A DNA stretch of 64,000 nt, taken from Lentilactobacillus kosonis. GTDB taxonomy: Bacteria > Bacillota > Bacilli > Lactobacillales > Lactobacillaceae. The translations under genes and the position numbers were made by a program. Location: the NCBI RefSeq assembly GCF_003864335.1, contig NZ_BEXA01000003.1, positions 62,001 to 126,000 of the forward strand, in the 5' to 3' direction. This document shows, piece after piece, positions 3,427 to 53,236 of this stretch. Under the pieces are notes generated by a model. That model ran no database searches. It was not told where the DNA came from and worked only from the letters and a program-made list of their open reading frames with translations. How positions within the stretch are numbered: the stretch's first letter is position 1; each line of letters opens with the position of its first letter.

Positions 3427-3584
3427 TGTGTTCCCTCCTTCGTCTATTTTAAAAATATGACTAACTCCGTGAAAATTACCGCCGCATCCATGGCAAAGCA
3501 TCCGGGTGTGTCGCAACCTTTCACATCAAAGCTATCATGTATCATTTTTTGAGCATACTTACCCTTAAAAACAATTACTAGAAC

Positions 3585-24531: not shown

Positions 24532-24768
24532 ACAAAAAAAGATCTTCCTCAAGAATATTGAAGAAGACCCCTTAATTTCAACATCTTGATAGCACCCCGT
24601 AGTAAACAACTACGACAGTTCTTAACTTATTGAGTTAAGCCCCAATCAACAATCGGAAAAGCAATTGCTGATTTCGGCGAACATCCCTTTCACTTTCAAT
24701 CGTCACTTCTGTTCAAGTTCCTGAAAGCTACTCTTAATGATCGCGCCTCTACTTCGAATATTTATTAT
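24532..24768 (-). promoter_or_regulatory. Lysine riboswitch (L box) with terminator
   Basis: The minus strand carries the L-box landmarks in order: GTAGAGGCGCGA near the 5' end, AAGAGTA, then AAAGGGATG with TTCGCCGAA, then CTGTCG and GGGTGCTATC. A terminator follows (GGTCTTCTTCAA with TTGAGGAAGATC and seven or more T residues at 24532-24540), about 45 bases before the permease start. High lysine should favour the terminator and shut off uptake. Confidence 0.93.
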
Positions 24769-41729: not shown

Positions 41730-42509
41730 TTACTCTTCCTTTCCCAAGTATGCAGTAATCACATCTTGATTATGTTTAATATATTCAGGACTGCCTGAAG
41801 CCAACAATGAGCCATGGTCTAACACATAGATTCGTTGAGCAACATTCATTACTAAGGACATATCATGCTCAATTAATAGAATCGTGATGTGGAATGTCCT
41901 TTGAATCTTAATAATTAAACGGGTCAAATCAGCAGTTTCTTCAGGATTCATCCCAGCTGCTGGTTCATCTAAAAATAAGATTTGCGGCTTGGTAGCAAGT
42001 GCACGAACAATTTCCAATCGGCGTTGAATTCCATAAGGTAGGTTTTTAGCTTTAGTACTTAGCTGATCGGTTAAGTCGAAAATGGATAATAACTCAATTG
42101 CTGCTTGTTTCATCTCAGCTTCAGTCTTGTAATAGTGTGGTGTTCTGAAGATTGAATTAATAAATCCTTCATGATATCGACTAGTCATCGCAATCATGAC
42201 ATTGTCCAGAACAGATAACTCTTTAAACAACCGAATGTTTTGAAATGTTCGCGCTAATCCCATTTGAGACACTTCATACGCAGGAACTTTATTCAATGTT
42301 TGCGTGCCGGTTTTACCTGTCAGAACAATTGAACCAGACGAAGGCTGAATCACACCTGTCAACAAATTAAACAATGTAGTCTTACCGGCTCCATTAGGAC
42401 CAATCAACGCAACTAATTCATCACTATCCAAGTACATCGACACATCTGAAACTGCTGTTAGGCCGCCAAAATTTTTAATTAAGTGATCAACTCTCAATAA
42501 GTTTGTCAT
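41730..42509 (-). CDS. livG: Branched-chain amino acid ABC transporter ATPase LivG
   Basis: This is the second ATPase of the LIV system. The 259-residue protein has Walker A GPNGAGKTT near residue 37, LPYGIQRRLEIVRALATKP (the LivG form of the signature) near 151, and Walker B ILFLDEPAAGMNPEET near 172. The long insert with GFINSIFRTPHYYKTE near 113 is typical of LivG. Its ATG overlaps the repaired stop of livM (ATGA). Confidence 0.95.
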   Translation of the reverse strand: MTNLLRVDHLIKNFGGLTAVSDVSMYLDSDELVALIGPNGAGKTTLFNLLTGVIQPSSGSIVLTGKTGTQTLNKVPAYEVSQMGLARTFQNIRLFKELSVLDNVMIAMTSRYHEGFINSIFRTPHYYKTEAEMKQAAIELLSIFDLTDQLSTKAKNLPYGIQRRLEIVRALATKPQILFLDEPAAGMNPEETADLTRLIIKIQRTFHITILLIEHDMSLVMNVAQRIYVLDHGSLLASGSPEYIKHNQDVITAYLGKEE

Positions 42510-43458
42510 TCGGAAACCTCCTTTGGCTTACGTCTGAATGCCTTAGTTAATGACAATTCCCAAGTGCCCATCAATCCAGATGGTTTGAACACCATGATCA
42601 AAATCAATGCAATCGCATAGATTACCATTCGCAATGTTCCAAAATTTGCAAGATAGTATCGATAACTCCTAATACAGTTGCTGCTACAAATGTTCCAGTA
42701 ATACTCCCAACACCACCAAGAACAACAATAATTAAGATTGAAATTGAGGCCATAATATTAAAATCATTCGGACCGATTGTTTGAATATACGAAGCATGCA
42801 GCGAACCCGCAATGGCCGCGGTTGCTGCTCCCAAGACAAACGCTGCCAGTTTCCATTTAAAGACATTAATTCCAACGGATTCAGCAGCAATTTCATCTTC
42901 TCTAACCGACTTCACTGCTCGACCGCCCTGACTCCGAATGAAATTCAAAATAATAATCGTGGTTAGACATACCATTACATATACCGTTGGCCAAGCCGCC
43001 AATGCTGGAATGTTAAATATTCCGGCAGCCCCGCCAGTAATTTTTAAGTTGTTAATAATAATCCGAATAATTTCGGCTGCTCCCATTGTCGCAATCGCAA
43101 GGTAATCGCCGCGCAACCGCAAGGTCGGAATACCAACAATCAACGCAACGATAATGGTTAAGATAACCCCAACGACCAATGAGATATAAAATCCTGCGGG
43201 TGATTCAACACTGCTGGTAATAATGGCGGTTGAGTATGCCCCAATAGCCATGAAGCCCGCATGCCCCAGTGAGAACTGACCAGCAAACCCAATAATTAAA
43301 TTCAACCCGGTTGCCAGAATAATGTTAATACCAATCGTGACTAACATATTTTCAATAAAGGCATTAATGACCCCAACTAGGATCAACGTATTCATTAAGT
43401 AAAAGCCAGCAATCATAATTACAATCCAAGCTACATTGGCTTTCCAATTTGCTTTCAT
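42506..43458 (-). CDS. livM: Branched-chain amino acid ABC permease LivM, 1-base deletion
   Basis: This is one of two membrane subunits of the LIV transporter. It has many helices, the segment IIGFAGQFSLGHAGFMAIGA near residue 55 (LivM signature) and the ATPase-contact loop AVKSVREDEIAAESVGIN near 182. Near the end the frame stops early because the run by 42648 lacks one base. Repaired, QNFGTLRMVIYAIALILIMV continues and the gene ends in a TGA overlapping livG, giving 317 residues. The ATG at 43458 is chosen for its AGGTG ribosome binding site. Confidence 0.9.
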
Positions 43459-43467
43459 CAATTTCAC

Positions 43468-44344
43468 CTACACTTTTTCCTTCACATTTTTGCCAAAGAT
43501 TCCTGCTGGTAGCACTAAAAGAATGATAATCAGTACCCCATATACCACCGCATCTTTGTAAGCTGATAAACCAATCGATTGAAATAGTGTTTCAAGCATT
43601 CCAATCAGGAATCCCCCAACTGAAGCCCCTGGAACTGAACCAATTCCACCTAAACGGCAGCCACGAATGCTTTGATTCCAGGAGTCATTCCCATCAATGG
43701 ATCAATCGAGTTGTAGTAAAGGCCAATCAAGACCCCAGCAGCCCCCGCCAGTGACGAGCCTAATGCAAACGTAAATGAAATTGTTCGGTTAATATTAATC
43801 CCGACCATTTCTGCAGCGTCAGAATCCACTGACACTGCTCGCATGGCTTTGCCCATTTTGGTTTGCTTAATAATCAATTGAAGTAAAATCATTAACACAC
43901 AAGCAGTGACCAAAATTAAAACTTGGATATTAGAGATCAATACTCCACCAATATTGTAGTTATGTTGGGCAATAATTTGAGGGAAGTCTCTTGTATCGGA
44001 AGTGAAGAAATAAGCCATCCCATTTTCCAACAAGAAAGATACTCCAATCGCCGTAATTAAAGCTGTGATTCTTGGTGCGTGTCGCAATGGTCGGTAAGCA
44101 AAGTACTCAATAATCACTCCACTGATTGCGCCCACCACCATTGAACTAAGTAGCGCTTCAATAAAATTAAAGTGCCAAGTATTGATTGAGTAGTATCCCC
44201 AAAACGCTCCCAGCATGTAAATATCTCCATGTGCAAAGTTAATCAGCTTAATAATGCCGTAAACCATTGTGTAACCCAAAGCCAGCAATGCGTAAATACT
44301 GCCTAGCGATAATCCATTAATAACTTGTTGAAAAATGTTTGCAC
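43468..44344 (-). CDS. livH: Branched-chain amino acid ABC permease LivH, two 1-base deletions
   Basis: This is the other membrane subunit of the LIV transporter. The family N-terminus QQVINGLSLGSIYALLALGY and the coupling loop AMRAVSVDSDAAEMVGININ are clear. Two bases are missing. One lies in the run at 44331-44335: adding a T on the minus strand links the coding frame to a GTG start at 44344 (MQTFFQQVING), which sits behind a perfect AAAGGAGGAGA ribosome binding site. The other lies near 43652-43654, after KAFVAAV; repaired, it continues LGGIGSVPGASVGGFLIGML. Repaired length is 292 residues, as usual. Confidence 0.9.
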
Positions 44345-44383
44345 AATTCTCTCCTCCTTTAAAATAAATGAACATTAAATTGA

Positions 44384-45575
44384 TTATTTAATTTCATACG
44401 TTTTTGAAACTTTACCGTTAGTCAATTGTTCGATTGCAATTGGCTTTTCAGGATCATGGTTCTTATTGATCGTAATGTCACCAGTTACACCGTTAAAGTT
44501 CTCAATTTTGCTAAGTCCTTCAGCAATCTTAGTTGAATCGGCCGATTTTTCGATTTCAATTGCTTGCTTGATCATGTTAATCGAATCGTATGCAAGCGCG
44601 GAGAAGTTGGAGCTTCAGCATGATACTTTTTCTCGTAATCAGCCATGAACTTCTTAGCAACTGGATTATTTGCTGATGCCTTGATTGAAATGGTGTTGTG
44701 TAATAAACGTTGTGCGCATTTTTATTACCGGCAATTTGAGCCAACTTAGGATCAGCCATTCCATCAGTCCCGATGATTGGCACCTTAATTCCTGCTTGAC
44801 GAGCTTGTTTCACAATCAGGCCAACTTCGGTGTAATAGCCAGGAACGTAAATCGCATCCACTTTTTTATTCTTAAATGATGTCAGAATTGCGTTAAAATC
44901 TTTATCGCCTTCGGTATAGGCTTGGGTATCAACTACCTTACCTTTAAATGAGTTCTTAAACGCTTTTTGCAATCCCGTTCCGTAATCAGTGGAATTATCG
45001 TACAATACAGCAACCCGTCTGGCCTTCAAATCATTGTATGCAAACTTAGCTCCGATTCCTCCTTGGAAATTGTTTTGATAACATGCTCTAAATACATATG
45101 GTTGAACCTTACCGCTCTTTTGCAATGTAAAATTAGGATCCGTAGCTGACGGACTAACGGCTGGAACTGCGGCTTTAGTAATATTAGGAATTTGAGCGGT
45201 CCCAGCATTGGTGGTTGCAGTTCCAACAATTGCATTAACTTTGTTATTGTTAACCAATTGGGTTGCGACAGAGGCTGAGGTGTTAGTTGAGGTTTTATTA
45301 TCCTTGATGATCAACTGAACTTTTTTCTTCTTACCGTTAACGTTAATGCCGCCGTCCTTGTTGATTTGATCGACGGCCATTTTAATTCCTTGATTCATTT
45401 GGTTCCCATAACCTCCGGCGGCTCCAGACAACTCCATATTTTCACCAATCTTAATTGTATTACCGGTTTGAGGATTACCCTTGCTACTTGATGTTGCTGC
45501 ACTACATCCAGCAAACACCACCGCCATTGCGACCATTGAAGCTATGTAACTGATTTTTTTGATTGTACTTTTCAT
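44384..45575 (-). CDS. livK: Branched-chain amino acid-binding lipoprotein LivK/LivJ, two 1-base deletions
   Basis: This is the substrate-binding lipoprotein of the LIV transporter. A signal peptide ends in the lipobox FAGC, with the lipidated cysteine at residue 23, then a serine-rich linker. The periplasmic-binding fold follows, with IKIGENMELSGAAGGYGNQM and NAIVGTATTNAGTAQIPNIT. The frame breaks at 44688-44690 and at 44604-44605, each a lost T on the minus strand. Repaired, the segment reads SIKASANNPVAKKFMADYEK and then TFSALAYDSINMIKQAIEIE, giving 397 residues. First structural gene of livKHMGF. Confidence 0.92.
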
Positions 45576-45654
45576 AATGAATTCCTACTTTCTCTTCTAA
45601 ATTATTAGTTAGTTTTGGCACCCAAATTTACTCTCCCCCTTTGGATTTTGGGCA

Positions 45655-45736
45655 TAAAAAAACCTCATTCTTTAACGAATGAGGTTTGGATATTTTCCAG
45701 TGAGCCCTCATCATTAAAGATGCAAAATAAGGGCTC
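45655..45736 (-). promoter_or_regulatory. Attenuator terminator and competing stems of the liv operon
   Basis: On the minus strand a terminator stem (AAACCTCATTC/GAATGAGGTTT, T-run at 45655-45660) lies 80 bases before livK. Upstream is a stem GAGCCCT/AGGGCTC (45702-45736). Its ATGAGG can instead pair with CCTCAT of the terminator (antiterminator), and its CATCTTTAAT is a perfect 10-base complement of ATTAAAGATG in the leader peptide's leucine codons (45791-45800). These alternatives are the layout of ribosome-mediated attenuation. The terminator is clear; the switching is inference. Confidence 0.65.
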
Positions 45737-45760
45737 AACTGTTTGATTAATTTAGGAATG

Positions 45761-45883
45761 TTACAATTCCCTAATCAAAGTCGGGTCCTTCATCTTTAAT
45801 AATAAGGCTAAATCTTGGACGGCAGAGATTGCCGCAGGTTGATAACTATTTGAATATGGATTTGCTTGCTTATTGATCAACAT
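45761..45883 (-). CDS. Leucine-rich leader peptide of the liv operon, 40 residues
   Basis: A short frame with a strong AGGAGG ribosome binding site eight bases before its ATG (45883) encodes MLINKQANPYSNSYQPAAIS and then AVQDLALLLKMKDPTLIREL. Eleven of its 40 residues are branched-chain: seven Leu, three Ile, one Val. Four leucine codons (all TTA) fall within five codons, LALLL. Its stop codon lies inside a hairpin (GGAAT/ATTCC, extended by TTGATT/AATCAA). It lies between the operon promoter and the attenuator, with no other gene. It is inferred to be a leader peptide whose translation reports leucine supply; a free-standing small protein is the alternative. Confidence 0.7.
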   Translation of the reverse strand: MLINKQANPYSNSYQPAAISAVQDLALLLKMKDPTLIREL

Positions 45884-45924
45884 GTCGGTAACCTCCTGTA
45901 TCCTAGATTTATTTGGATAGACTT

Positions 45925-45952
45925 AGTATAGGTTATTCTAATTAAATGTCAA
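45925..45952 (-). promoter_or_regulatory. Promoter of the liv operon
   Basis: A perfect TTGACA (45947-45952), a 16-base spacer and TATACT (45925-45930) on the minus strand, about 40 bases before the leader peptide start. It is among the best promoters in the window. Confidence 0.85.
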
Positions 45953-46272
45953 CGTTTTTAATAAAATTACTTTATTTGTTATTTATCCAAAAAGATTGCT
46001 TCTATATAATGGCAATCCAAAAATATACCATCGCTTTGCATAGCTTAAGATTAGCTATTAACATGGATCATCTTACCCAAAAATTATTACTAAGGATAAT
46101 TAGAATTGCATTAATCTCCAAAATTAGCCATATATTTGGTCAAAAAAATATTTAATTCAAATATTTTTTTATTATTAGTGTACAAACGTTATTTCTCTTT
46201 ATTATCAACGATTAGTGCGCAGAATTCTTCCCAATTTGGCTCTAAAAATTTCTATTTTTTTATTTTTCATAC
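45953..46272. other. Gene-free AT-rich interval
   Basis: This interval separates the divergent liv and asn units. It holds an AT-only hairpin at 46142-46170 (AAAAAAATATTT and its complement, five-base loop) that could end transcription in either direction. A 69-codon frame on the plus strand (45946-46155) has no ribosome binding site and overlaps the liv promoter, so I do not call it a gene. Confidence 0.6.
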
Positions 46273-46313
46273 TTTACAAGTTAAATTTCCTGTGCTAAAT
46301 TTTAACTTGTAAA
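46273..46313. repeat. 13-base inverted repeat before the Asn T-box
   Basis: TTTACAAGTTAAA (46273-46285) and its exact complement TTTAACTTGTAAA (46301-46313) flank a 15-base centre. It sits immediately upstream of the T-box leader, where the promoter should be. TTTACA in the left arm could be a -35 but no good -10 follows. It is a candidate operator for a second layer of asn control. Confidence 0.6.
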
Positions 46314-46314
46314 T

Positions 46315-46600
46315 TTGAAACATTAAAAAACGCAAAGAAAGACGAGTAAGATATTTCAACCTTCCAGTGAGTCGGGATTAGTGGAAACCCGATAAGTTCT
46401 TGATATATCTGAAAAACACTTTCTAGTTTCTCTCTGAACCAGCCAGCAATGACTTCAAGTAGGAGCAGACGTAAAACCGGAACGTTATCCTCGGTGGAGT
46501 ATGTTAGTACTCTTATTGAGGTGGCTTATTTTAGATAAGCAACTTGGGTGGTACCGCGAAAAGTCTTTCGTCCCTTGGCTGGGGATGAAAGGCTTTTTTT
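46315..46600 (+). promoter_or_regulatory. T-box riboswitch, asparagine-specific
   Basis: The leader of asnA-asnS. Stem I base pairs GAAAG (46337-46341) with CTTTC (46419-46423). Above it an AGTA motif faces the specifier loop, which reads AAC followed by A (46415-46417), an asparagine codon in the same register as the serine codon of the serS T-box. The T-box core TTGGGTGGTACCGCG is at 46544-46558 and a terminator (AAGTCTTTCGTCCC with its partner, seven T) at 46561-46600. Uncharged tRNA-Asn should switch the operon on. Confidence 0.93.
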
Positions 46601-46638
46601 GTTCCCAAAAAATAAAAAATGAAGAGGAGCAACACATT

Positions 46639-47646
46639 ATGCAATTAATTATCCCTACGGATTACGATCCTAAATTATCAGTTAAAACTACTCAAGAGGC
46701 TATTCGCTACATTCGGGAAACTTTCCAAGACGAATTTGGTCAACAAATGAACCTATCTCGGGTATCAGCCCCAATGGCCGTTAAAAAATCATCAGGTTTA
46801 AACGATAACTTAAATGGTGTTGAAACGCCAGTTTCATTCACAATGAAAGAAATTCCTGGTGAAACTATCGAAATCGTTCACTCACTTGCTAAATGGAAAC
46901 GTTGGGCCTTGAAACGTTTCAACTTCGAAGTCCACACTGGGCTTTACACCAACATGAATGCCATTCGTAAGGATGAAGATTTGGATAACATTCATTCAAT
47001 TTACGTTGACCAATGGGACTGGGAAAAGGTCATCACTAAAGAAGAACGCACTGAAGAGACCTTAAAGAGTACCGTTCGGCAAATTTTTAAAGTTATCAAA
47101 CATATGGAACATGAAGTTTGGTACAAGTATCCCGAAGCCGTTTACCACCTACCAGACGAAATTCACTTTGTGACTACTCAAGAGCTTGAAGATCGTTATC
47201 CTGACCTTGACCGTCAATCACGTGAAGATGCTATCTGTAAAGAACTTGGTTGTGTCTTCTTGATGAAAATTGGTGGCCCAATGAAGAGTGGTAAAAAGCA
47301 CGATGGTCGCGCCCCCGACTACGATGACTGGGAATTAAACGGTGATATCTTATTCTGGTATGAACCATTACAACGTTCGCTTGAAGTTTCAAGCATGGGA
47401 ATCCGGGTAAGTCCAGAATCAATGGCTAAACAACTTAAAATGGCCGATGCTGAAGATCGCCTAGAATACCCCTACCACAAAGCATTAATGAACGAAGAAC
47501 TTCCTTACACTATTGGTGGTGGGATTGGTCAATCACGTTTATGTATGTTACTTCTTGGCAAGGCGCATGTTGGTGAAGTCCAAGCGAGTGTTTGGCCTGA
47601 CGAAATGATTGAAAAATGTGCAGCTGCTGGAATTCAGATTCTGTAG
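46639..47646 (+). CDS. asnA: Aspartate-ammonia ligase (asparagine synthetase A)
   Basis: This enzyme makes asparagine from aspartate, ammonia and ATP. It resembles class II aminoacyl-tRNA synthetases. The open frame begins far upstream in the T-box, but the ATG at 46639 ([20 protein letters not shown]) has a GAGGAG ribosome binding site and gives the standard 335 residues. Core segments are [13 protein letters not shown] near residue 80, [12 protein letters not shown] near 125 and the late motif [20 protein letters not shown] near 300. First gene of the Asn T-box operon; asnS follows after 10 bases. Confidence 0.96.
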
Positions 47647-47656
47647 GAGGAATATT

Positions 47657-48951
47657 TTGGAAACTATTAGAATCATCGATTCACCAAAACATGTTAACGA
47701 AATTGTTAAAATCGGCGTTTGGGTCACTAACAAACGAAGTAGCGGCAAAATCGCCTTTCTCCAACTTCGAGACGGTAGTGGTTTCTTCCAAGGAGTTGTG
47801 TTAAAAAATAACATTTCCGAAGAAAAATTCACCCAGGCCAAAGAACTCCGTCAAGAAACCAGCTTATATGTGACTGGTGAAATTCATGAGGATAAGCGAT
47901 CTCATTTCGGATATGAAATCCAAATTAATGATTTTGAAATTGTTGGCGAAAGTGAAGATTACCCCATCACTCCTAAAGAACATGGAATTGATTTTTACTA
48001 GATCATCGTCATCTCTGGCTACGGTCAAGTAAACCTAACGCTATTATGAAGATTAGAAACGAAGTTCTCCATGCGGCCAATGAATTCTTCTATCAGCAAG
48101 GATTCACTAAATTTGACGCGCCAATCCTAACTGGTTCAGCTCCTGAAGGTACGACCGAGTTATTTGAAACCGACTACTTCGGTAAAAACGCCTACCTCTC
48201 TCAAACTGGGCAACTTTACGGTGAAGCTGGTGCCATGGCCTTAGGTAAAATTTACACCCTCGGACCAACCTTTAGAGCTGAAAAATCCAAAACTCGTCGT
48301 CATTTAACCGAATTTTGGCAACTCGAACCAGAAATGGCTTGGTGGCATCAAGACCAGAGCTTGGAACTTCAAGAACAAATGGTTGCTTATTTGGTTCAGG
48401 CTGTGATTGATAATTGTCAACCAGAATTAAAAATCTTGGATCGCGATGTTGACGTCCTCAAGAAGTACACTCAGCTACCTTATCCTCGTATCTCTTACGA
48501 TGACGCAATTAAGTTACTCCAAGACAATGACTTTGATGTTAAATGGGGAATTGACTTTGGTTCGCCAGAAGAAACTTTCTTGGCCAACCACTTCGATAAA
48601 CCAGTCTTCGTTATGAATTACCCTAAAGATATTAAGGCGTTTTATATGCAACCACATCCAACCAGAGACGATTTAGTTGTCTGTGCCGACTTGCTTGCTC
48701 CTGAAGGCTACGGTGAAATCATCGGTGGTTCTGAACGTTCTGCTGATTACGATTACATCTTAGGTCGCTTAAAGGAGACGGGCCAAGACTTAAGCAACTA
48801 CGAATGGTACCTTGATTTATTAAGATATGGCGCCGTTCCTCATTCAGGATTTGGAATGGGCCTCGAAAGATTTCTAACTTGGATTACCCTTCAAGACCAC
48901 CTACGTGAAGTCATTCCCTTCCCAAGAATGTTAAATCGCTTAAATCCATAA
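47657..48951 (+). CDS. asnS: Asparaginyl-tRNA synthetase, 1-base deletion
   Basis: This class IIb synthetase charges tRNA-Asn. The start is a TTG at 47657 ([20 protein letters not shown]) with an AGGAGG ribosome binding site. The N-terminal OB fold binds the anticodon. After KEHGIDF the frame stops because the T-run at 47992-47996 has five rather than six T residues. Repaired, it reads [20 protein letters not shown] into the catalytic domain. Motif 2 is [20 protein letters not shown] and motif 3 is [15 protein letters not shown]. Repaired length is 431 residues. It follows asnA, so synthesis and use of asparagine are co-regulated. Confidence 0.94.
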
Positions 48952-48952
48952 T

Positions 48953-49000
48953 AAAAAACCGCTGATTACTTTCTTTCTCGCTAGTAATCAACGGTTTTTA
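48953..49000 (+). terminator. Terminator after asnS
   Basis: A stem AAAAACCG-TGATTAC with GTAATCA-CGGTTTTT around a 14-base loop, just after the asnS stop. Confidence 0.85.
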
Positions 49001-49041
49001 TTATGGTAAGCTTTAGTGAAACTATCTTTAGGAGGAAGCAT

Positions 49042-49167
49042 ATGAGAGATAAATACGCTACCGCCACTGCTGTGCTCCACATTATTAGTGGAGCCCTGCT
49101 TACCATTAGTGGTGCCACACTGCTCGCTTCAGGCATCGTCCAAGCCAGCAAACCAAATACAAAATAA
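49042..49167 (+). CDS. Small membrane protein, 41 residues
   Basis: A short frame starting MRDKYATATAVLHIISGALL and continuing TISGATLLASGIVQASKPNT, ending in K. It has an excellent AGGAGG ribosome binding site seven bases before the ATG and its own terminator directly after the stop, so it is likely to be translated. A single hydrophobic segment (residues 10-35, rich in small residues) suggests a membrane peptide. I recognise no family. It lies between the asnS terminator and the converging MerR gene; its promoter is not clear. Type I toxin or small regulatory membrane peptide are possibilities only. Confidence 0.62.
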   Translation: MRDKYATATAVLHIISGALLTISGATLLASGIVQASKPNTK

Positions 49168-49171
49168 CGCA

Positions 49172-49198
49172 GACGTCCTGCCATTTGGTAGGACGTTT
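49172..49198 (+). terminator. Terminator after the 41-residue protein gene
   Basis: ACGTCCT-CCA pairs with TGG-AGGACGT, then TTTT. It begins a few bases after the stop codon and also separates the gene from the converging MerR gene. Confidence 0.75.
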
Positions 49199-49201
49199 TG
49201 C

Positions 49202-49669
49202 TTAATCAGCTTTGATTGTTTGCTTAGCCAATTCCATTTGATATCTTTCATGCTCTTTGGCGTCAACTTGAGTCGTGCCTGGAATAAAGTGAATCGATTC
49301 GGTTCCCGCCTCAGCAGCAGTTTGATAATACCACTTCTTCCACCGCAGAAACGCCAAATTAGCCTCAAGTTCTTTAATCTGCTGTTCTAATTGGTCTTCT
49401 TGATCTTCCATAAAAGCTAATCGCTGATTAAGTGTAATATCGCCTTCCATACACCAGTCAATAAATTTACCGATCTCTTTTATTTTAATACCAGACATCT
49501 TTAGACAATTAATCACTTCAATATATCCTAAATCATCGTCAGTAAATTGACGCCGACCAGCAGCATCCCGCTTCGCAAATGGCAATAATCCTTCTTTATC
49601 ATAGTACCGAATTGCGTCAGCTGATACGTTCATTTGTTTTGCGATATCGCCCACTGAATATTTTTTCAT
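49202..49669 (-). CDS. MerR-family regulator of the adjacent SDR gene
   Basis: The 155-residue protein has the MerR N-terminal HTH (MKKYSVGDIAKQMNVSADAI then RYYDKEGLLPF) and a long C-terminal dimer coiled coil. There is no cysteine cluster for metals. The ATG at 49669 has an AAGGAGA ribosome binding site and drops a 10-residue upstream extension. It is divergent from the short-chain dehydrogenase gene, and a textbook MerR promoter with a 19-base spacer lies between them. The type resembles aldehyde-responsive AdhR-like regulators, but the effector is unknown. Confidence 0.9.
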   Translation of the reverse strand: MKKYSVGDIAKQMNVSADAIRYYDKEGLLPFAKRDAAGRRQFTDDDLGYIEVINCLKMSGIKIKEIGKFIDWCMEGDITLNQRLAFMEDQEDQLEQQIKELEANLAFLRWKKWYYQTAAEAGTESIHFIPGTTQVDAKEHERYQMELAKQTIKAD

Positions 49670-49678
49670 ACTTTCTCC

Positions 49679-49709
49679 TTGACTTGGAGTTAACTCCAAC
49701 TGATAGACT
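49679..49709 (+). promoter_or_regulatory. MerR-type promoter with 19-base spacer
   Basis: TTGACT (49679-49684) and TAGACT (49704-49709) are 19 bases apart, too far for normal sigma-A use. The spacer holds the perfect palindrome TGGAGTTAACTCCA. This is the classic MerR arrangement in which the regulator twists the DNA to align both hexamers. It faces the SDR gene. Confidence 0.9.
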
Positions 49710-49740
49710 GAATTATATCATATCCAAAGGAGAAATTATT

Positions 49741-50471
49741 ATGACAAAACCATTAATCGTTATTACCGGTGCCAGCTCTGGCTTTGGTGCTGAAATCGCT
49801 AAACTTTTCAATGCGGCTGGCTACCCAGAATTATTACTAGGCCGGCGGACAGAGAAGATTACCTCACTACCATTAAACTTCGATCAAGTAATGGTCGAGG
49901 CAGTGGATGTAACCGACCAAGAACAATTTAAAGCTGCTATTACTAAAGCCGAAGCAAAATTTGGCCCAGTTGATTTATTAGTAAATAATGCCGGCGTAAT
50001 GCTATTGGGCAACGTTCAAACTCAATCATCTAAGGAATGGCAACAAATGCTTGATACCAACGTAATGGGTGTGCTAAACGGTACTCAAATCGTTCTTTCC
50101 GGAATGGTGGCTCGTGAACATGGAACCATTATCAACATGTCATCATTAGCTGGTAAGAAGACCTTCGTTAACCACGCTGCCTACGTCGCATCAAATTCGG
50201 CGTTCATGGTCTTAGCGAAACCATTCGGGAGGAAGTTTCTGGTAGCAACGTTCGAATTTCATTAGTTGCCCCGGGAGCTGCTGAAACCGAATTATTAACT
50301 CACGTTACTGACGAAAACGCTTTGACTGACTACAATGCTTGGAAGGATACCATGGGCGGAATTACCCTTGATCCAGTCCATGTGGCCGAATCAGTTAAAT
50401 TCATTTATGATATGCCACAAGAAGTTAACATTCGTGAAGTAGATATTGCCGCTACTCGTCAAGATTCATAA
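49741..50471 (+). CDS. Short-chain dehydrogenase/reductase, 1-base deletion
   Basis: This is an NAD(P)-dependent oxidoreductase of the YdfG-like group. The 243-residue repaired protein starts MTKPLIVITGASSGFGAEIA, with the TGxxxGxG cofactor loop, then NNAGV near residue 83, the catalytic serine in NMSSLAG near 138 and tyrosine in AAYVASK near 150. The lysine of YxxxK is restored only by adding one A at 50193-50195; as read the frame shifts to a stop at 50265. The rest reads SLVAPGAAETELLTHV. An AAAGGAG ribosome binding site precedes the ATG. Controlled by the adjacent MerR protein. Confidence 0.9.
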
Positions 50472-50483
50472 TTTATACCACAT

Positions 50484-50519
50484 AAAAACTCCAGATAGGA
50501 TATCCTGTCTGGAGTTTTG
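50484..50519. terminator. Terminator between SDR and pepN
   Basis: AAAACTCCAGA and its near-complement TCTGGAGTTTT with an AGGA/TCCT inner pair. Converging genes end on both sides, so it serves both. Confidence 0.85.
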
Positions 50520-50530
50520 CGTTACATAAT

Positions 50531-53066
50531 TTATTTAACTGAATCAGCAACCGCTGCGTTAACAGCTACCTTTTCAGCTTCAACCAAGTTGACTCTAGTT
50601 TCGATGATATGAATGTCCATTTCAATTTCTCGAGTTAATCCGGGCGTATTTAACTTTGGTTCAAAGAATTCTTTAAATTCAGATAGTCTTGATGAGGTTT
50701 TAAATACCCGTGAAGTAACCGTAATAAAGGTTGCGAATTCCATATCACCACCCACGGTATCCTCTAACCACTGCCAATCTTTTCTAATCCAATCCCAATC
50801 AGCTTGTTGGCCATCATCATTAGATAACACACCAGCGTACCAACCACGAAGATCTTGGGGCTTGATAGTTCCTGCATCTTCAAACTTATCGACGATTTTA
50901 GCAATTAGTTTTTGATCAGGGGTACTAGTTAACGCTGCTCTGATATCGGCTTTGTAGCTGGCGTCAGAAGTTTGCACATAGGTACTCAATAGTTCATCAA
51001 ATAATGATTCACTACCATAATTCTTAATTTCATTTCTTAATACAAAAGCCCGCACATCCGCTGGTAATGCATCTAAGTGATCACGATTATCGATAAATAA
51101 TTTATGCGCAGCTGCAATTGAATCGGCATTCTTAGCGTACAATGATGCGCTTAAAACATATGGCCGAGTCAATTGATCATCATTAGACTCACCAGCTTTT
51201 AATTGCCAACCTAACCGAGCAACTTGATTCTTACTTAACTTATCATATAACTTACGTAAGGTTGCTTCTTCATCTGAATCTGGTGTCACAAATTTCCGTA
51301 AGTCACCAGCGATTTGGTACAAGATTGCATTAACAATGTTTGACTTACTGTCCGCAAAATTAGCTAACAATGGCACGATGCTAGCATAAGAGATTTGGCG
51401 ACCTTCAGCCAATAAGCGTAAGTCTTGTAACACTTGAAGCTGATCAATTGGAGCTAAGCTGGTAGCACTAGCTAAAATGTCGTTAAGTAACGTTTCATCA
51501 TACTTCACAATGAAGTGAGAATTGTTACCAACGTTAATTCTAAATGGTTTCCCATTTTGTTGGCGCAATTTTGAGTAATTACCAAGATTAATTGTCTTAT
51601 CTGCAAAAATTTCGGGAGCAATTTCGTAATTACTGTTAAGTGGAATCTGCCATTGCCGGCCAGCTTCTTTACCCTCACCAATGAAGAACTGTTGTTGTGA
51701 AAGCACTAAATCACCATTTTCAACTTTAGCTTCCACAACTGGATACCCAGGTTGTTCCAGCCATGAATTCATAATGCTTCCAACATCTAATCCGGAAGCA
51801 TCCCCCAAGAGCAGCCCATAGGTCTGATCCCTTGGCATTATCGAATTTATGCGCAGCAAAGTAATTCTTTAATCCCGCTCTTAAATTATCGTCACCTAAT
51901 AATGCCCGCACCATAACTAACATTCTGGCACCTTTGGCATAAACGATAGCTGGATCGAATAACGCATCAATTTCAGCTGGGTTACTAACCTCAACGTGAA
52001 CTGGTTGAACCCCATCAGTTGCATCCCTTTGTAAAGCCATTGGTGCATCTGAAGTTTGGAATAATTCCCAAATATGCCAGTCAGGTTCAATGGCATCAAT
52101 TGAAACATATTCCATCATGTTAGCAAAACTTTCGTTTAACCATAGGTCGTCCCACCACTTCATGGTTACCAGATCACCAAACCATTGATGAGCTAGTTCA
52201 TGAGCGATTACTGTTGCCACCACTTGTTTAGTTTCAAGGGCGGTATTATCAGGATCTAACAATAAATAAGCTTCTCGGTAAGTTACTAATCCCCAGTTTT
52301 CCATGGCCCCGGCTGAAAAGTCAGGTAATGCTAATTGCCAAGAATGTGGTAGTGGATATGGAGTTTGGTAAAAGTCCTCGTAAAATTCAATTGATCGCTT
52401 AGCGATGTCTAAGGCAAAGTCTAATTCATTGGCTTTATGAGCCTTAGTAGCAAAGACCCCAACTTTAACCCCGCTCTTAGTGGTTGTGGTTTTGCTTTGT
52501 AGATCACCAAAGGCAAATGCAATTAGGTAAGTTGACATTCTTACTGTGGTATCAAAGTAGTGAACGCCAGCTTCTTCCTTAATTTCTGGCATGTTGGCCA
52601 AGATGGTCTCACCTGCTTGCTCGTCAAACTTAATTGCAAGATCAAAGGTTGCCTTGGCTTCTGGCTCATCAACTGATGGAAATGCCTGGCGGGCGAACGT
52701 GGTTTCAAATTGCGTACCGATGATTTGTTTCTTTTCGCCGTCAACTTCATAATATGAAGGATAAATTCCCATCATACTGTCAGTCAATTTGGCACTATAC
52801 GAAATGGTAACTTTAATAGCCCCTGTCGTACCCGCTTCAACGTAAAATGCATCGTTAGCGTCATCCTTAGTGAAGTTAACTGGATTACCGTCTACTTCGA
52901 CCCGTTCAATATTTAAAAATTTTTGATGAAGTGAGATTCTTTCTGATTCAGCTTTTCCGGTAATCGTCGTTTTACCACTGAATTGTTTTTGTTTACGATT
53001 AATATCTAAATAAATATCATAATGTTCTGGTTGGAATGTCTCATAAAAATGGGTTATTGCAGTCAT
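50531..53066 (-). CDS. pepN: Aminopeptidase N, 1-base insertion
   Basis: This M1 zinc metallopeptidase removes N-terminal residues from peptides, central to peptide use in lactobacilli. The start at 53066 gives MTAITHFYETFQPEHYDIYL. Motifs are GAMEN (near residue 248), HELAHQWFGD (near 285, zinc ligands) and NESFANMMEY. Near 51802-51806 the run has five rather than four bases (plus strand CCCCC), which shifts SDLWAALGDASGLDVGSIMN out of frame. With one base removed the protein is 844 residues, the family's length. It is a single-gene unit with a bidirectional terminator after it. Confidence 0.95.
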
Positions 53067-53236
53067 GAGTATCTCCTTAGCTTTATTAGAATTACCCTCA
53101 TTATACCAACATTTGATCGGAGTGCTAAAATTTTGGGCTATTTTAATTAGCAATCTTTTAAGAATTAACGCTCCTGTTAAGATTACAACCAAATCTGCTA
53201 TGATATCTATAACATCAACAGAACGGAGTAATTAAA

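Follow-up and report, generated by a model that had tools for sequence, protein, structure and literature searches.

An RNA leader that is very probably a leucine-responsive, ribosome-mediated transcription attenuator precedes the branched-chain amino acid (BCAA) uptake operon liv of Lentilactobacillus kosonis. The mechanism it represents, leader-peptide attenuation, is a known one, here placed on an uptake operon. The leader lies on the minus strand of the window, the 64,000-nucleotide stretch of contig NZ_BEXA01000003.1 (positions 62,001 to 126,000, assembly GCF_003864335.1) that was analysed, and what is observed in it and its relatives is the sequence itself, a retained short frame with its leucine codons, compensatory base changes and a link to livK and leu genes. 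Its stability relative to shuffled sequences and its recurrence before livK in many species confirm that the element is real and beyond chance.

All elements of the leader and of the operon are located on the minus strand. The promoter (TTGACA-N16-TATACT, 45925..45952) agrees with the consensus at 11 of 12 positions, TTGACA being at 45952-45947 and TATACT at 45930-45925 with a 16-nt spacer. It is the best of 12 promoter-like sites in a scan of 44500-51500, where the other sites agree at 9 positions; such sites are not enriched overall in this region (12 vs. 19.5 expected in shuffles), and the same scan counted 7 terminators vs. 5.7 expected. By sequence comparison, the promoter arrangement is alike in the leaders of the genus relatives. 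The Shine-Dalgarno (SD) sequence AGGAGG (45892..45897) is followed by a frame of 40 codons, MLINKQANPYSNSYQPAAISAVQDLALLLKMKDPTLIREL (45761..45883), which begins with the ATG at 45883, reads ...QDLALLLKMKDPTLIREL and stops at TAA (45763-45761). No Pfam family was found in the leader peptide at E <= 0.001. The regulatory codons TTA GCC TTA TTA TTA (LALLL, 45797..45811), of which LLL is kept in relatives, open segment 1a (45791..45811), which extends to the residues KM and is the predicted partner of segment 2b in the OFF state. Segment 1b (AAGGACCCGAC, 45780..45790) is the partner of segment 2a (GTTGAGCCCTT, 45729..45739) in nine pairs; a variable apical hairpin with five modelled pairs (45740..45779) separates the two. 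Segment 2b (CATCTTTAATGATGAGGGCTCA, 45701..45722) can pair with 1a (OFF), with 2a (hairpin 2) or with terminator arm 3 (antiterminator, ON). The intrinsic terminator, AAACCTCATTC-GTTAAA-GAATGAGGTTT and a U run (45656..45687), was identified by terminator scan and covariation and ends approximately 80 nt upstream of the livK ATG (45575).

An earlier, sequence-only reading of this DNA had described the promoter, the 40-codon frame with AGGAGG and its cluster of TTA leucine codons, the terminator 80 bases ahead of livK and a perfect 10-base complement between the leader and the next stem. All of these are present; ATTAAAGATG (45800-45791) matches the reverse complement of CATCTTTAAT (45722-45713) at every base. 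The complementarity on which it based its antiterminator, of ATGAGG (45711-45706) to CCTCAT (45684-45679) of the terminator at 45687-45660, exists as well, but the antiterminator is longer than claimed, CATCTTTAATGATGAGG forming 17 pairs with CCTCATTCGTTAAAGAATG around two single-base bulges. The folding of the leader has a z score of -6.95 against 200 dinucleotide shuffles, none of which was equally stable.

The first gene downstream is livK (44577..45575), which encodes a substrate-binding protein (Peripla_BP_6, E 4.3e-42), and livH, livM and livG follow (41730..44375), with BPD_transp_2 domains in two proteins and ABC_tran in one; the liv names were assigned from Pfam domain type and gene order. 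The livK open frame stops here at 332 aa, vs. 397-398 aa in most genus relatives, and LivK of one of them (G023) is a single frame of 397 aa. Broken or overlapping frames are seen in livK (44384-45575), in the livH/livM region (42506-44375) and in a neighbouring long gene (50531-53192), and in this 83%-complete assembly indel errors seem likelier than decay. The leader is situated between livK and a divergent region that starts with a T-box leader (46324-46578, plus strand, 118 bits), behind which stands a gene that we take to be asnA-like. The window also has a Lysine riboswitch (24582-24759, minus strand, 121.6 bits) and an S10-Clostridia ribosomal leader barely over threshold (3440-3537, 36.8 vs. 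35.1 bits).

Covariation was read from an alignment (A3) of 70 livK leaders, 69 of them distinct, from 70 sources selected at a stricter cut-off, the rows being related to each other; the selection avoided the seven antisense self-matches of an earlier alignment (A2), and one misaligned row (L115) was retained. In the OFF structure, comprising the 1:2 helix, the apical hairpin and the terminator, 95.2% of the cells are paired across the 70 leaders and 30 of 41 pairs have two-sided changes. The 252 cells with two-sided changes compare with a mean of 57 in shuffles (0 of 500 as high) and 15-59 in slid controls, a figure biased towards this structure since A3 was fitted to it. Two-sided changes occur in four of the nine 1b:2a pairs (98.7% of cells paired), in all five modelled pairs of the apical hairpin and, among relatives, in eight of the ten pairs of the terminator helix. 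The antiterminator was outside the fitting of the alignment. Its 17 pairs are formed in 84.5% of cells vs. 28-51% when slid, and two-sided changes fill 44 cells vs. a shuffled mean of 18.8 (0 of 500 shuffles as high; 8-28 when slid). Nine antiterminator pairs have such changes, a number that 9 of 500 shuffles and one of the slid versions also attain (5-9 when slid), and the level of further pair types was reached by 45 of 500 shuffles. For hairpin 2 (2a:2b), 87.2% of cells are paired, with covariation no higher than in shuffles. Compensatory changes among the competing helices thus mark both the OFF structure and the antiterminator.

In the proposed mechanism, a ribosome supplied with plentiful leucyl-tRNA would pass the LALLL codons, after which 1a and 1b would pair with 2b and 2a (or 2a with 2b), leaving arm 3 free; the terminator (3:4) would then form and transcription would end before livK. 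If leucyl-tRNA is short, the ribosome would stall on LALLL and cover 1a. Segments 1b and 2a would still pair and hold 2b from folding back, and 2b would then pair with the emerging arm 3, so that no terminator would form and liv would be transcribed. Without translation the long 1:2 helix would be expected, and transcription would end. We infer the stalling, the read-through, the leucine response and the order of the pairing events. As segment 2 can fold on itself, covering the leucine codons may not be enough to release the antiterminator, and 1b:2a together with the apical hairpin must hold hairpin 2 off. A pairing like 1b:2a with an apical hairpin is part of the architecture of his-type attenuators, and because the second hairpin competes, release probably needs a his-type rearrangement. 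The mechanism as first read, with stalling at the leucine codons freeing the antiterminator, is probably right in outline: the leucine codons and the compensatory changes support it, but competing hairpin 2 probably adds a his-type step. Of the three observations that this first reading named as refuting it, the two that sequence comparison addresses turned out the other way: relatives keep the frame with its leucine codons, and compensatory changes are present in the competing helices.

Folding models appear to back the switch only partly, in 19 of 57 family leaders and in none of the 12 genus leaders at equilibrium. In the genus leaders the predicted energy is -16.4 to -19.7 kcal/mol for the self-fold of segment 2 and -19.0 to -22.8 kcal/mol for its duplex with the terminator region. 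When the complete leader was folded at equilibrium with a ribosome masking various codons, the terminator won at every position in 12 of 12 leaders, hence the switch would have to act co-transcriptionally. For co-transcriptional folding, the transcript was cut just ahead of terminator closure and its upstream part masked up to the leading edge of the ribosome. With the ribosome on the second leucine codon, the best fold combined the antiterminator with 1b:2a in seven of the seven genus leaders shown; moving the A site to the last leucine codon left the antiterminator as the best fold in three of the seven, with hairpin 2 best in four, including the leader of the window.

A first scan of ribosome positions, in which any upstream pairing of the terminator arm was counted, was dropped because some leaders scored high without a ribosome, which was attributed to pairing of the SD sequence. 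The scans that replaced it count the specific antiterminator pairs, the genus scan averaging four ribosome footprints and the family scan using one with a slightly different transcript cut. In the 12 genus leaders, an A site placed on the first Leu of LALLL gives a mean antiterminator probability of 0.58, compared with 0.05 when it lies four codons further upstream and 0.09 without a ribosome; for the leader of the window it is 0.60 at the first Leu vs. 0.00 without a ribosome. The exceptions are L012, with 0.82 in the absence of a ribosome, and L010 and L014, which peak at just 0.21 and 0.15. For the family scan, 60 of the 70 rows were left after a 92% identity filter, by which the row of the window was dropped in favour of the near-identical L039, and three were skipped for having too few core pairs. 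The median of the resulting 57 leaders lies at 0.01-0.02 in the stretch five to nine codons ahead of LLL. It is 0.71-0.90 between four codons ahead of the first LLL codon and one codon past it, staying at about 0.9 from two codons ahead of LLL up to its second codon, and is down to 0.02-0.06 at five to eight codons past the first LLL codon (0.03 at six); without a ribosome the median is 0.17 and the mean 0.40. A peak of at least 0.2 is reached in 47 of the 57, and 43 of these 47 peak within three codons before to one after LLL, a position that carries little meaning where the value is high throughout. The antiterminator is at 0.5 or above already without a ribosome in 25 leaders and never reaches 0.2 in 10; three of the other 22 stay at 0.5 or above with the ribosome at the stop codon, leaving the 19 that behave as the model requires.

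The distribution of the leader follows that of livK. Within the genus, leader DNA was found in 12 of 24 genomes and LivK in exactly those 12, counting as leader-bearing one genome (G017) in which the leader, at a contig end, and LivK are on separate contigs. Each of the 12 leaders shows an SD-like run and an ATG, and its peptide carries LALLLK(M/I/K)KDPTL behind a variable N-terminus. A covariance model built from them (R1) gave hits at E <= 0.01 in 84 of 397 family genomes, and in 70 of these the hit was scored as a livK leader, 69 directly upstream of the gene and one (G017) at the contig end. Nine R1 matches (L105, L110, L111, L113, L114, L116, L118, L119 and L120), with no leucine leader or no fitting gene downstream, were taken as chance, and four more weak ones (G026, G386, G047 and G186 contig 36) were left out of inspection. 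A second model (R2), made from the 70 livK leaders and applied to the regions upstream of the remaining LivK genes, added 12 genomes, so that the leader is present in 82 of the 111 LivK genomes of the family sample: 77 of 77 in 11 genera, 5 of 11 in g33 and g37 and 0 of 23 in g10, g13, g16 and g27. LivK is merely 46-57% identical to that of the window in 28 of the 29 genomes without the leader; in the remaining one (G085) it is 61% identical and the contig ends approximately 230 bases upstream.

The leader is present at 79 of the 80 named LivK loci that scored best out of 413 and so are the closest to LivK of the window; the 80th has just 48 bases ahead of the match. Family genomes and named contigs overlap, and the two fractions, 82/111 and 79/80, are two views of similar species. 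The 79 loci belong to Lentilactobacillus, Liquorilactobacillus, Pediococcus, Secundilactobacillus, Bombilactobacillus, Lactobacillus, Lactiplantibacillus (including L. plantarum, L210), Levilactobacillus, Lacticaseibacillus and Loigolactobacillus. L. melliventris and L. kimbladii each have two livK loci approximately 5 kb apart, with leaders of their own (L198/L235 and L202/L244). In an order-wide R2 search of 395 genomes, matches better than E 4.8e-5 were confined to Lactobacillaceae; five weaker ones were outside the family, and one of these (G614) was inspected. No match to the leader was found in the plasmid collection.

The persistence of the frame and its leucine codons in relatives, through synonymous changes, bears on the possibility that the leader is simply a structured RNA, such as a riboswitch or a protein-binding site, in which the short ORF is incidental. 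The leader RNA is indeed strongly folded, and conservation of the KDP(T) motif is largely at the nucleotide level: in several relatives the RNA after LLL falls into a different frame (LALLLQRRT, LALLLNSRTQH) or beyond the stop (LALLLNT). Against this, 76 of 77 automatically called leaders retain LLL, the single exception being VAVLII, while the codons of the triplet swap synonymously between TTA, TTG, CTA, CTC and CTG. These 77 were drawn from 79 loci of livK, leuA and one further type; two leaders missed by the automatic filter (L097 and L098) have frames that by eye both end AALLLTKKDPVT. In the named loci, LLL is found in 75 of 79, the rest reading IIIALL (3) and VAVLII (1), and an SD sequence, a start and a short ORF accompany 79 of the 79 loci with an R2 match, under a permissive filter and with one doubtful frame (L255). 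The leaders of this set and of the 63 R3 loci described below were chosen by a script that takes L/I/V runs with an SD-like run upstream and so favours such frames. Wobble pairs are retained at positions where stronger pairing would remove a leucine codon: at the second base of the first triplet codon, U stands opposite G in 65 of 69 sequences, and C there would pair better and lose the leucine. The SD-like run and the start codon are kept despite the varying N-terminal peptide, 50 of 56 leaders before leuA or leuB end exactly in ALLL-stop, and in the leader every Rfam family stays below its gathering score. An incidental ORF is accordingly improbable. As the peptide after LLL is often not kept where the RNA is, the leucines look to be kept for translation and much of the remaining leader for RNA pairing.

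Translation could also matter by another route, if the leader were a nascent-chain arrest peptide that stalls the ribosome by its own sequence and not by shortage of leucyl-tRNA. Within Lentilactobacillus the sequence (D/N)LALLLK.KDPTL is well conserved, as such a peptide would be; between genera, however, the flanking residues diverge (AALLLTKKDPVT, LVALLLERRT, FALLL-stop) and the leucine run persists, and at some other LivK-type genes isoleucine runs stand in for it. We give peptide-specific arrest slightly less credit still than an incidental ORF. That the leader is a T-box, which senses uncharged tRNA directly and without an ORF, here leucyl-tRNA, can practically be dismissed, even though T-boxes are a usual solution in Lactobacillales and the window itself has one at 46324-46578, for the scan that picks up the latter detects no T-box in the leader.

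Searches for other known regulators of the leader gave nothing either. T-box RF00230 has no covariance-model match in the leader and is absent from the 13 matches obtained up to E 10 across 45560-45960, and known Rfam families give sub-threshold matches far under their gathering scores (e.g., 21.3 vs. 100 bits). Rfam at gathering scores likewise gave no match in 20 regions upstream of LivK genes, of which 19 had drawn nothing from R2 at E <= 1 and one (L153) a weak R2 match of 0.0021. The CodY box has the consensus AATTTTCNGAAAATT. Membership in the CodY regulon was rejected, as no box lies between 42647 and 57833 and the window has 15 matches with up to three mismatches vs. 18.1 expected.

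Leucine-dependent attenuation, the reading preferred here for livK, apparently extends to other genes, with the livK leader being one member of a leucine regulon in Lactobacillaceae. Leaders of 17-24 codons that end ALLL-stop before a leuA-like gene were met in the R1 and R2 searches. Ten of these were built into a covariance model (R3), which at E <= 0.001 gave hits in 145 of 397 family genomes, livK leaders being among the hits. In 63 inspected R3 loci the next gene is leuA-like (45), leuB-like (11), an MFS transporter (3), of SBP_bac_3 type (2), a short PEP_mutase-like frame (1) or unclassed (1). These classes were read from protein starts, with Pfam checks of one leuA-type, one leuB-type, all three MFS and one of the two SBP_bac_3 proteins and the PEP_mutase-like frame; the checked leuA-type protein has an HMGL-like and a homocitrate-synthase-type second domain, and the leuA label does not fix its reaction. 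In two loci the gene after the leuA-like one begins like leuB. The 56 leaders before leuA or leuB types end in ALLL-stop (50), VLLL-stop (3) or one extra residue (2), with one uncalled. A livK-type leucine leader also precedes an SBP_bac_5 (oligopeptide-type) binding protein (G118, L273).

Since the codons that would sense leucine also serve as a strand of the OFF helix, codon choice is tied to RNA pairing in evolution, and shifts of specificity from Leu to Ile can be traced. One genome (G080) has two LivK loci with leaders reading ...RLIIIKD and ...RALLLFA (L133 and L134), an apparent change of specificity (LIII vs. LLL). The leader of L. apis reads IIIALL, and in another family of the order (G614, L272) a LivK-like binding protein is preceded by a terminator and by the leader MFSLSQNIIIIIKSRA, in which five codons are for Ile. 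The leader before the short PEP_mutase-like frame (L337, G349) has a valine-leucine run, ...ATVVVVLLLS. In genus g16 another leucine leader, which uses CTC/CTT codons, reads ...SSQALLLLLML and has a terminator of its own, precedes a more distant LivK in 5 of 14 LivK genomes (L168, L170, L171, L172 and L173); R2 gives no match there at E <= 1, and this leader is possibly convergent. Taken together, we consider it likely that a Lactobacillaceae-wide family of leucine-attenuator RNAs, with no Rfam match, works as a regulon in which liv, leuA, leuB and, in single lineages, other transporters (MFS, family-5 and family-3 solute-binding) are coupled to leucyl-tRNA charging, with codons and helices co-evolving and specificity drifting to Ile or mixed BCAA.

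In the his, leu and ilv attenuators of enterobacteria, several segments alternate in pairing, and a stall on regulatory codons shifts the balance from terminator to antiterminator. Alternating pairing and the stall-driven shift are common to these and to the model of the liv leader; unlike in them, segment 1a of the liv leader would pair with 2b directly, which places the regulatory codons inside the OFF helix. In Gram-positive bacteria, leader-peptide attenuation controls BCAA synthesis in S. aureus, where it is leucine-dependent, and in L. monocytogenes, ilv-leu leader-peptide attenuators are predicted in Lactococcus lactis, Streptococcus and Corynebacterium, and a 2018 review suggests this as a common control of Gram-positive BCAA synthesis (PMC5794164, PMC6123439). 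Compared by their described features, these attenuators have, similarly to the liv leader, a leader with BCAA codons, a terminator and a competing antiterminator, but they control biosynthesis, whereas the liv leader precedes an ABC uptake operon in Lactobacillaceae. Histidine leader peptides of hisS/hisZ and his operons are reported for Firmicutes (PMC2965389, PMC9413887), and T-boxes are named as the commonest histidine control in Lactobacillales (PMC9413887). The Firmicutes His leaders are leader peptides outside Proteobacteria like the liv leader, and differ from it by amino acid and hosts. T-boxes precede LIVCS (brnQ) transporters of BCAA, also in lactobacilli, and thus share amino-acid-responsive antitermination of BCAA uptake with the liv leader; the words livK and livJ are absent from the main text of the paper that describes them (PMC2494555). 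Neither for a liv operon nor for Lactobacillaceae leu genes was a leader-peptide attenuator found in an incomplete open-access library, which leaves most subscription journals outside and makes this weak evidence.

In the Gram-positive literature covered here, then, leader peptides are described for BCAA synthesis and T-boxes for uptake in lactobacilli, and here a leader peptide stands before an uptake operon. No HMGL-like (leuA-type) gene was found in the 83%-complete assembly of the window's genome, and for this reason uptake may be the main leucine source of the organism. Leaders of this kind stand before the uptake operon in many genera of food and gut lactobacilli and apparently also before a set of leucine genes, a likely regulon where T-boxes might have been expected. 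The liv leader probably turns leucine import on under leucine shortage, with the same kind of switch before leucine-making genes in relatives.
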